From Verrucomicrobiales bacterium (GTDB lineage: Bacteria > Verrucomicrobiota > Verrucomicrobiia > Limisphaerales > JAYPXF01): a stretch of DNA of 64,000 nt. Both the position numbers and the translations under genes were made by a program. The stretch spans positions 1 to 64,000 of the forward strand of contig PBAL01000076.1 of the NCBI GenBank assembly GCA_002715965.1. The letters are read 5' to 3'. Positions 10,752 to 29,801 of this stretch are shown one piece after another. Position 1 is the stretch's first letter, and each line of letters begins with the position of its first letter. The notes beneath the pieces were generated by a model. It saw only the letters and a list, made by a program, of their open reading frames with translations, searched no databases and was not told where the DNA came from.

Positions 10752-11153
10752 ATGAAAAAACTCATCGCACTCGCGACCGCATTCGTACTCGCCTCCACGG
10801 CCGCCATGGCCGGGGAATTCCCTGACATCAGCATTACCGAGCTCGAGAAGAAGATCGAAGCCGGCAAGGTCACCGTCATCGACGTGAACGGCGCCAAGTC
10901 CTTCAATTCTCGTGGACACATCCCCGGAGCGATCAACTTCGCCAAGGTTGGCAAGAAGCTCTCCGGCGCACTTCCCAAGGACAAGGACTCCTTGATCGTT
11001 GCATACTGTGGCGGACCGAGCTGCAAGGCTTACAAGCGCGCTGCCTCTGCTGCCGAAAGGTTGGGCTACACCAACGTGAAGCACCTCTCCGCCGGTATCT
11101 CTGGCTGGCTCAGCGCCGGCAAGAAGGTCGAAAAGGGTGGCAAGGCCAACTGA
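10752..11153 (+). CDS. Secreted rhodanese-like domain protein
   Basis: Signal peptide MKKLIALATAFVLASTAAMA; VIDVNGAKSFNSRGHIPGAINF; CGGPSCKAYKRA. Confidence 0.88.
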   Translation: MKKLIALATAFVLASTAAMAGEFPDISITELEKKIEAGKVTVIDVNGAKSFNSRGHIPGAINFAKVGKKLSGALPKDKDSLIVAYCGGPSCKAYKRAASAAERLGYTNVKHLSAGISGWLSAGKKVEKGGKAN

Positions 11154-25504: not shown

Positions 25505-28500
25505 TTAAGGAATAAAGACGAACTCATTCGCATTCAGCATCGCGCGTGCGAATTGCTGGATGCCGATCGATTCAATGAACGCTTTTGCGTCGTCGCGTTC
25601 GGCATTCGTTGGCGCTCTTCCAAACGCAAGTTTGTACGCGCGGTTGATTTGATCGGGCACGGATTCGCCAGCGTCTCTTTCCAATCGCTTGGCAAGCAGT
25701 TCTGCCTGTTGAACAACAAAGCTGCTGTTCAGGAGATTGAGCGCCTGCAAGGGCGTGGTGGAACGGCTTCGCTTGGCAACGGCCTGGCTGGCGTCCGGAC
25801 AATCGAATGCTCCGAATACCTGGTCCCGTTCCTGGCGGACTTTCGTCATATAGATCATGCGACGCCAATCCTCGGGCCCATAGCTTTTCTTGGGATGAAA
25901 GTGCCGGACGTTTTCCATCTCCACCTCGAAGGCACTGAATCCCGGCCCGCCCATCTTCACATCAAGAACTCCGGTGACCTGCAACATGGCATCCCGGATG
26001 CCTTCCGCCTCGATGCGGCGTGAAGGGAAACGCCAGAGCAGGCGGGTCGCCCCATCCAAGGACATGGCCTTGCGGTTCGGCCGGCTGTCCTGTTGCCAGG
26101 TTTCCGACGTGAGAATCAATTTGTGAATGTGCTTGAGTGACCAGTCATTGCGCATCAACTCCAAAGCGAGCCAGTCGAGCAGCTCGGGATGGGTGGGCGT
26201 TGAACCATTGGCGCCAAAGTCGCTCGGAGTATCAACGATGCCTTCACCGAAATGGAACTGCCAGAGACGGTTGACGATCACGCGCGCGGTGAGTGGATTG
26301 GAGGGATTGCTGACCCATTCCGCCAGGGTCTTGCGGCGATCGCGTTCGGGTGCGTCGCGCCGGAGTGAGACCGGCGTCAGTGCGGAAATCATGCCGGGGC
26401 TGACCTCTTCCCGTTTCTGGTCCGGCTCGCCGCGATACAGGCGATGCGTCGGTCCGGGCTGTGTGAAGGCGCCGGCGTAAACCTTCACCGGTTTGGCCAG
26501 TTGTTCGCGTTGCTTCAGCACAGCATTCAGTCTTGCAAGCGCCTTCCGTCCGTTGGCGGCCTTGGCGGGTGGGTGCGAATCGAAGTCGTAGCTGGGACCG
26601 GAGTCCTTGTCGCCCGAACCATAGGCAAGCCGGTCACCGGAGCCGGCGATCTGACGCCACTCCCCGGGCTTGGTTGCCACCTCGATTCGATAGGCGATCG
26701 GAATGCGGTCGCTGTATTTCTTTTCCCGATCGCGCGCCCATTCGATGCGATCGATCAGCGTTTCCCGTGGAAGCTCAATCTGCACCCAACCCGAACGTTG
26801 GGCAGCGATCCAACTGTAGGAGTTGCCGTACTTGCCGTCGTTGATGTGGGCGAGCTTGTGCTTCGGATGTTTGAAGTCGCCGTTGGAACTCGGCTTGGCA
26901 CCGGCGCTGGCGCTGGCGACGTTGGTCTTGCCGGAGAAGATTTCGAGTTCGTCGATGCAGGGCTGCGAGCTGCTCGACTGCTCGATGGTGAAGCGGACAA
27001 ACTTCGCCTTGGTCGGAGGAAAGGTCTCGCGATTGTGCGCGGCAGTAACGGCTTCGCGAATGGTGGGGCGAAGCGGCTTGGTCTTCAGGGCTTCGCCGGT
27101 GACCCGTTCAAACAGGACAACATCCGCGGTGATTGCCGTGCCGATTTGTCCGCCGAGAAGTATTAGCGAGTCTCCGCGTTCGAACTTGTGAATGCCGGCA
27201 TTGTAGAAGCCGCTCCACAAGGCCTTGTTGACGACCTTGCCGGAACCGCCGGCAAACAACTGCTGGTTCACCCGGGCCACGAAGGTTCGCTTTCGAGTGG
27301 GAGTCTGGAGCCAGTAGACCGCGTCCTTGGTGTGCGTCGAATAACCCGCGCCCCATGAAAGCCAGACCCGGTAACGTCCTTCCAGATGCGGACGCCAGGC
27401 GGCCACTTGCTTGCCGGGCGGATTTGTCCACCAGGTGTATCTGCCACCGCTGACGTTCGGCGCACGCTCGTGCGTGCCCGGATCCTGCGCATAGCCACGC
27501 GCTGTTCCTTTCGGATTTGTTCCGTTGCCGCGCGGCTTCAACAGGTGATCGGCCTTCTCATCATCAATCGCCACCATCGCCCCGCTTGACTTGCGAAGGA
27601 AGGGGGTGAGCTTGCTTCGCAGCGAGGCGATCTCCTTGTCCAGTGCAGCAATCTTGACCTGCCGTTCCTTCGGTATCGCCAAGTTGCGATCCTTATGTTG
27701 AACACCCGCAAAGATTGCCTGCATCGAATAGTAATCCTTCTGGGTAACCGGATCGAACTTGTGATTGTGGCAACGGGCGCAACCCAGCGTGAGTCCGAGG
27801 AAGGTGGTGCCCGTCGTGTTGATCATGTCGTCCAGTTCATTCATGCGCTGCATGATGCGGAGATTCGGATCCTGTCCTTTGACCAGGTCGTAAGGGCCGG
27901 CGACAAGGAAGCCCGTCCCGATTTCAGACCCGAACACATCGCCGGCGATTTGCTGGCGGACGAATTCATCGTAGCGCTTGTCCGAATTGAACGCGTCGAT
28001 CACCCAGTCGCGGTAATGCCAGGCGTGAAGGCGTTCGCGATTCGTTTCGAAACCATGCGTTTCGCCGTAGCGCACCAGGTCCAACCAATGCGCAGCCCAG
28101 CGTTCGCCGTAGCGCGGGCTGGCGAGAACTTCATTCACGAGTTCGTCCCAGGCGGACCCACCTTGCTCGTTTACAAACGACTCGACTCGTTCCGGGGTGG
28201 GAAGCATTCCATGCGTGACCATGAACAACCTCCGGATCAACTTCCGCTTTTCTGCGCGTGGAGACGATTGCAGTCCTCTCTCGGAGAGCTTCGAACGAAC
28301 GAAATGATCGATCGCATTGGCACCACTCGGAAGGTCCGGTTTCACCACCGGTTGCAGAGACCAATGCGTCAACTGCGGGCGTTCGTTGGCTTCCCCATAG
28401 GACGCGGGCGTCTTCGCGCCTTCGTTGATCCAGTCCTTCAAGATCTTGATCTGGTTCTTCGATAGGCGGTCGCCTTTGGGAGGCATCACCAGATCGGCTT

Positions 28501-28822
28501 CCCGCCCGGAAACCAGTTTTATCAGGTAGCTGTCCTCGGCTTTGCGCGGTTGAATTGCGGGTTCACCGGAATCACCGCCGGCGAGCAGCTTCGATCGGCG
28601 GTCTACGCGAAACTCTCCCTTCTGCTGATCCGGGCCATGGCAATCCAGGCAGTGCTCGGCCAAGATCGGTTCCACCTCGCGCCCGAAGTCCACTGCCCGT
28701 GAATTCGCGGCCGGCACCAACATGCCAACGACGAGTGCCTGCAAAATTCGAGTGGTCTTGAGTTGGCGAGTTATCACGGGTTGCCAAGAGACGTTTTTAT
28801 CCCGATCGCAGTCTTCACACAA
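25505..28822 (-). CDS. PSD1 and planctomycete cytochrome c domain protein (DUF1549/DUF1553)
   Basis: [92 protein letters not shown]. Confidence 0.95.
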
Positions 28823-28881: not shown

Positions 28882-28978
28882 TGGCAGAGAGGGTGCGAAT
28901 CGAACACACCACCCGACAGCGACTGCCGGGACAACGGTTTTGAAGACCGCGGAGGCCACCAGGCACTCATCACTCTCC
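28882..28978 (-). tRNA. selC: tRNA-Sec (anticodon UCA)
   Basis: Reverse strand GGAGAGTGATGAGTGCCTGGTGGCCTCCGCGGTCTTCAAAACCGTTGTCCCGGCAGTCGCTGTCGGGTGGTGTGTTCGATTCGCACCCTCTCTGCCA: loop CTTCAAA (UCA), 8-bp extra arm CCCGGCAG/CTGTCGGG, T-loop TTCGATT, encoded GCCA; acceptor stem has one G-U and one apparent mismatch. Confidence 0.88.
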
Positions 28979-29120: not shown

Positions 29121-29801
29121 GTGATACAGGAAAAAAGTTCAGTAATGTCAGATTCTTCAATGATGCTTGAGACGGTCATGCGCGCACGTAGGACAGAGAA
29201 AGTCATGTGCGACGTTTCCGAACGGCGAGAAGTGCCCCCGGAAATCGAGTCACGCAACAAAGTACTCGTTCTCGAATCTCTTGAGGCAGCCGGATGGGCT
29301 CCTTTTCATTATCCGCGCCGGAAGGAAATCCTTGAGCCTTGGCGGGCGCACATCCTGTGGAGCAAGGAAGTAACGCGGGTGACGGACTTCCTGTCCACGG
29401 AATTGAAGCTGCAAAATAAACTGCCTCGCCTTTGCGCAGCGTGCAGCGCCTTGGTGCTGGCGACATGGATTCCACAGGAACCGAACGAAGGTGCATCCCG
29501 TAATAATGCCTTGGACGCGATGAATGCCGAACACCTCGCAGCTGCCTCGGCCATGGTTCAGAATCTTCTACTGATGTTGACTGCGCATGAAATGGGCAAC
29601 TATTGGTCGAGCGGGGGTGACCTGGGATCGGCGACCGCGTTCGAGTTCCTTGGGATCCCAGCCGACGAACGACTCCTTGGCGCGATTTTCGTTGAGTATC
29701 CCGAGATGAAGGCCGCCAAATTTGACAACAAAGATCGGCAACCAGGCAAGCTTCGGGAGAAGAGAGGCACGGGGTGGATCAAGGAAGTGGTGATTGATTG
29801 A
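29121..29801 (+). CDS. Nitroreductase family protein
   Basis: RARRTEKVMCD...LLESLEAAGWAPFHY; AAASAMVQNLLLMLTAHEMGNYWSSG. Confidence 0.75.
   Translation: MIQEKSSVMSDSSMMLETVMRARRTEKVMCDVSERREVPPEIESRNKVLVLESLEAAGWAPFHYPRRKEILEPWRAHILWSKEVTRVTDFLSTELKLQNKLPRLCAACSALVLATWIPQEPNEGASRNNALDAMNAEHLAAASAMVQNLLLMLTAHEMGNYWSSGGDLGSATAFEFLGIPADERLLGAIFVEYPEMKAAKFDNKDRQPGKLREKRGTGWIKEVVID

Follow-up and report, generated by a model that had tools for sequence, protein, structure and literature searches.

The window, the whole stretch of 64,000 nucleotides that was analysed, carries on its minus strand, at 28882-28978, a tRNA gene of 97 nt (read from 28978 to 28882 and including an encoded GCCA). It is a genuine selC in a Verrucomicrobiota bacterium, very probably one that works, specifying the tRNA-Sec through which selenocysteine, the 21st amino acid, is inserted. 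About 60 nt downstream, on the same strand, lies a PSCyt1-PSCyt2(DUF1549)-PSD1(DUF1553) gene (25505-28822, assigned by Pfam), and a DUF1501 gene comes next after it; on the other side of selC a divergent nitroreductase-family gene occupies 29121-29801 of the plus strand (Pfam PF00881, 27.2 bits). The nitroreductase and PSCyt/DUF1549-DUF1553 genes are neighbours of selC only. Neither an integrase nor any other sign of an island was noticed beside selC, and a scan for sigma-70 patterns found no promoter. Many relatives have selC adjoining selW and selA; in this genome selC lies apart from selAB. Comparing gene order with that of the nearest relatives gave no information: the DUF1553 match of a MAG of the same family (G073) has another upstream neighbour and is without the tRNA.

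ARAGORN places selC at 28882-28976 with anticodon TCA; the limits 28882-28978, with G1-G2 at 28978-28977 as the 5' end, are preferred. The tRNA scores 60.8 bits (E 7e-10) against Rfam RF01852, for which the gathering score is 47. Its cloverleaf is the minimum-energy fold when folding is left unconstrained (-40.6 kcal/mol), with a stability z of -3.0 that none of 200 shuffled sequences equalled. The anticodon UCA (28941-28943) is set in the loop CUUCAAA; G73, a long variable arm (8 bp) and a 6-bp D stem with one bulged U (GAG(U)GCC-UGGU-GGCCUC, 28952-28968, as given by the Rfam alignment, the fold and the relatives) are likewise present. The sequence-only reading had called a tRNA-Sec in a Verrucomicrobiota-like genome from this loop and anticodon, the 8-bp extra arm and the encoded GCCA; each of these features is there, and ARAGORN and RF01852 both bear out the call. 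The RF01852 score is not decisive by itself, because on contig C4 of this genome a tRNA-Ser(tga) reaches 50.5 bits: this second match above the cut-off is not a tRNA-Sec. That the model also scores tRNA-Ser above its cut-off is the one point in favour of a mis-called tRNA-Ser(UGA) or an allo-tRNA suppressor, a reading that has next to no probability: the genome has a separate tRNA-Ser set that includes tga, and the UCA anticodon, the long variable arm, the 6-bp D stem with its UGGU loop, G73, the higher score and the co-occurrence with selAB all speak against it. The anticodon, the D arm and the context settle the identity of selC.

Canonical bacterial tRNA-Sec has a 13-nt acceptor+T (AT) strand, folded 8/5. 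The window tRNA has 12 nt between its T loop and G73: the 3' side (28882-28897) is made up of the T-stem strand CGCAC, the 7 nt CCUCUCU, G73 and CCA. The acceptor 5' strand GGAGAGUG (28971-28978) forms six pairs, the first of them a G1-U72 wobble, and U7 stands unpaired opposite C66, which may pair with G8 or G48 instead. A 13-bp (8+5) acceptor+T helix is thus not formed, and the unconstrained fold has 6+6 bp. Among the tRNA-Sec matches in the loci compared, the AT strand is 12 nt long in 46 and 13 nt long in 21. The comparison within the GGAGAG lineage comprises 27 distinct tRNAs, in which the first six acceptor pairs are kept, apart from a single mismatch in one of the tRNAs. Position 7 faces position 66 as UxC in 25 of the 27 and as A-U in the other 2. 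Position 8 pairs with 66 in 20/27 (G-C in 19/27), varying among G, T, A and C regardless of C66; position 48 can pair with 66 in every one of the 27 (25 G-C, 2 G-U). The bulged U of the D stem and a bulge at 43a of the anticodon stem are common to this lineage; 43a appears as an inserted u in the Rfam alignment, and the lineage reads ACCGUUG, or else ACCG plus a comparable additional base.

Because the UxC opposition is kept so widely among relatives, the strand is 12 nt long and the fold is 6+6, the imperfect acceptor stem can be understood as an inherited short-stem design. Judging from these sequences, the window tRNA is a 12-nt AT-stem tRNA-Sec, paired 6+6 or 7+5 with a UxC mismatch, and not a decayed 8+5 form; as modelled, 6+6 describes its pairing best. 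That it is instead a canonical 8+5 tRNA-Sec, harmlessly mismatched at a single acceptor pair, the seventh or the eighth, is improbable. The eight 5' nucleotides would fit eight pairs with one mismatch and the Rfam model aligns end to end, but the distance from T loop to G73 is one that the order's canonical class, with its 13 nt, does not share, and neither the free variation of position 8, nor the unfailing ability of position 48 to pair with 66, nor the free fold accords with an eighth pair. The G-U and the T/C mismatch that had been noticed from the letters are real; of the explanations then offered for them, an unusual variant holds and early decay is unsupported. The short-stemmed tRNA is mostly ordinary, then: ordinary in kind, with one structural twist.

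A tRNA-Sec with a 12-bp AT stem (7/5 fold) has been described by Santesmasses et al. 2017 (PMC5330540), where a Cloacimonetes type is also cited, in Gammaproteobacteria, Clostridiales, Spirochaetes, Alphaproteobacteria, Rubrobacter and Dehalogenimonas; Verrucomicrobiota are absent from that list. The window tRNA resembles that class in the 7 nt that separate T stem from G73, in the 43a bulge, which is common there, probably in an extra unpaired acceptor/linker nucleotide, and in the presence of selA and selB in the genome, and differs from it in the UxC at the seventh pair and in pairing best as 6+6. A D-stem bulge, confined to Clostridiales in that survey, is also found here. With the canonical 8/5 tRNA of E. 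coli selC it shares the UCA anticodon, the long variable arm, the 6-bp D stem with a 4-nt loop, and G73; the difference is the AT strand, 13 nt there and 12 nt here. A literature search on tRNA-Sec of Verrucomicrobiota found no paper in the library that was searched, and the present gene extends the short fold to this phylum. The principal determinant for SelB is considered to be the 8-bp acceptor stem (PMC7609411), and a short AT helix with a conserved UxC where acceptor and T stem meet is for that reason relevant to the way in which SelB and EF-Tu discriminate tRNA-Sec.

The rest of the genome (G000; 6.08 Mb in 101 contigs, 92.7% complete) supplies the partners of the tRNA. Single copies of selA (69988-71301, 492.7 bits), selB (68063-69919, 314.3 bits, winged-helix domain present) and selD (72562-73419, 269.9 bits), all above their curated cut-offs, are adjacent on contig C58; that selC, on contig C76, belongs to the same organism follows from the MAG binning. 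The closest relatives of this SelA are from Verrucomicrobiota. SelD makes up the C-terminal half of a protein of 722 aa in which it is fused to an oxidoreductase (TIGR03169, 474 bits, and TIGR00476, 267 bits, both above cut-off; the cut-off of TIGR04369 is not reached) with the active site CGGCGAKI, that is, CxxC; Ndh-SelD fusions likewise having CxxC in the SelD active site are known from marine metagenomes (PMC2398784). Some 6 kb from the sel cluster, a SelO/YdiU-like gene recognised by eye (C58:79968-81551, 527 aa) ends ...QATFCGT, with Cys and not Sec.

One convincing UGA selenoprotein, on sequence grounds, is encoded in this genome: a SelW homologue on contig C94 (32910-33125, minus strand; PF10262, 66.5 bits) with a single TGA inside, the product of which would read MEISIEYCAAUNYEPKAVGLAAKLLEHK..., with a CxxU motif. 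It differs in nothing essential from the SelW-like (Rdx, CxxU) proteins of the marine selenoproteome (PMC2398784), here tied to Verrucomicrobiota. A SECIS-like hairpin, GCCGUC-GGUCU-GGCGGC with loop GGUCU, starts 15 nt past the UGA. Across 28 distinct sequences 99.3% of the cells of its 5-bp stem are paired, and sliding the stem brings this down to 56% or less; third positions never vary in the five codons of the hairpin but do so in each of the ten flanking codons, a pattern that indicates a constraint on RNA, not on protein. The helix hardly varies in these 28 sequences and shows no significant covariation, the hairpin being too conserved for compensatory change to be demonstrable; taken by itself, its folding energy is unremarkable (z -0.1). 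Under the standard code the gene would stop after 10 codons: gene finders need UGA = Sec in such genomes.

The search for further selenoproteins in this genome covered targeted stretches and one 20-stretch sample. In-frame TGA is absent from the formate dehydrogenase-type molybdopterin enzymes and from the AhpC/TSA and AhpD/CMD proteins of the genome; a weak AhpC/TSA match carries one TAG. Of the expectations of the sequence-only reading, UGA recoding is upheld by selA, selB and selD together with the one UGA-containing SelW homologue; that none of the three sel genes lies in the window agrees with their place on C58; and their discovery removes the absence on which a relic would have rested. 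The idea that apparent truncations might be selenoproteins is good for one gene, SelW, and for none in the window, where a coding-potential scan gave no UGA candidate. On contig C2 a coding-like frame of ~495 aa (L137:9772-11256, minus strand), with an N-terminal CxxCH cytochrome-like motif and no Pfam match, has one in-frame TGA at 10930 (FASL*AQGLIDLKTPENSK); a nonsense change or an assembly error is more likely than Sec, because the TGA is not at a redox position. In relatives' SelA and selC loci a scan for conserved TGA readthrough gave Sec-type SelD, SelW-like, thioredoxin-like and AhpC-like candidates; most raw matches were shadows on the strand antisense to selA or to the tRNA, and coding-potential filtering removed these. 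The sel loci of L028, L126, L043, L046 and L048 probably encode thioredoxin-like selenoproteins (FWGDW[U]GPC, SWASW[U]GCR) and AhpC/TSA-like ones (YRGLW[U]PPC, RSADW[U]PIC), in addition to a Sec-type SelD.

The tRNA, the three sel genes, the conservation of an in-frame UGA and of the hairpin after it, and the joint occurrence of these elements in genomes of the order are the computed grounds for reading the locus, with a probability of about 95%, as a functional selC of the 12-nt AT-stem type that serves Sec decoding with SelA, SelB, the SelD fusion and the UGA-containing SelW. Charging, Sec synthesis and recoding are taken from the known bacterial pathway: SerRS would charge the tRNA with serine, SelA would turn Ser-tRNA into Sec-tRNA with selenophosphate that the oxidoreductase-SelD fusion supplies, and SelB would bring the Sec-tRNA to UGA codons that have a SECIS hairpin after them, the mRNA of the CxxU redox protein on C94 being at least one presumptive target. 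A decaying relic in a genome that is losing the Sec trait is very improbable. Its signs would be the separation of selC from selAB, a MAG of the same genus (G044, 80% complete) in which tRNA-Sec, selA and a SelW match are all missing, and the G1-U72 wobble, which among the relatives compared is unique to this genome (the others have G1-C72) and which still pairs. Against these stand the intact selA, selB, selD and SECIS-bearing UGA-SelW of the same genome, the sharing of the UxC mismatch by the lineage, and a D-stem A-U that replaces the relatives' G-C with pairing kept.

The patchiness of the Sec trait is also evident in the same-family MAG G073, where selA was found and tRNA-Sec and SelW were not. 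In the comparison set of 195 genomes of the order, selA is present in 73, and tRNA-Sec-like matches (at least 56.5 bits and at least 90 nt) in 68, 64 of which have selA. SelW with exactly one TGA occurs in 41 of the 195, and selA accompanies it in 40 (hypergeometric P ~3e-20, a descriptive figure only, the genomes being related). Exactly one TGA is found in 44 of the order's 46 Rdx matches; the only two TGA-free ones are G033:C22:537-752 and G015:C119:22354-22569, and G015, which has the TGA-free form only, is without selA. The SelA of G189 (C26:86621-87922) contains one in-frame TGA, either an error or recoding.

It is mildly surprising that tRNA-Sec and SelA divide the order so cleanly into two lineages. 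In a SelA tree of 99 rows, made by a quick method and with most rows lacking a tRNA label, a single clade (support 100) holds this genome's SelA and all Verrucomicrobiota and Acidobacteria rows with 12-nt tRNAs; the 13-nt rows of the same order fall elsewhere, near Planctomycetota and Bacillota rows. The 12/13-nt label requires 2 changes on this tree against 11.9 in shuffles. The best explanation of these sequence data is that the 12-nt tRNA-Sec has been inherited together with the Verrucomicrobiota-centred SelA clade. G144 (L225, L226, L133, L237) has two SelA, one per clade, and two tRNA-Sec, one of 12 and one of 13 nt, a double set on which the 3% contamination of this MAG may bear. It is conceivable, if rather doubtful, that the order holds two separately inherited Sec sets (12-nt with its own SelA, 13-nt with the other), both present in genomes like G144, and that helix length and SelA, perhaps also SelB, have co-evolved into mutually orthogonal pairs. 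A second natural SelA/tRNA-Sec pair is available for comparison with the canonical one. Some relatives' tRNA-Sec genes (L044, L046, L048) end in GCAA or GCTA tails, without an encoded CCA.
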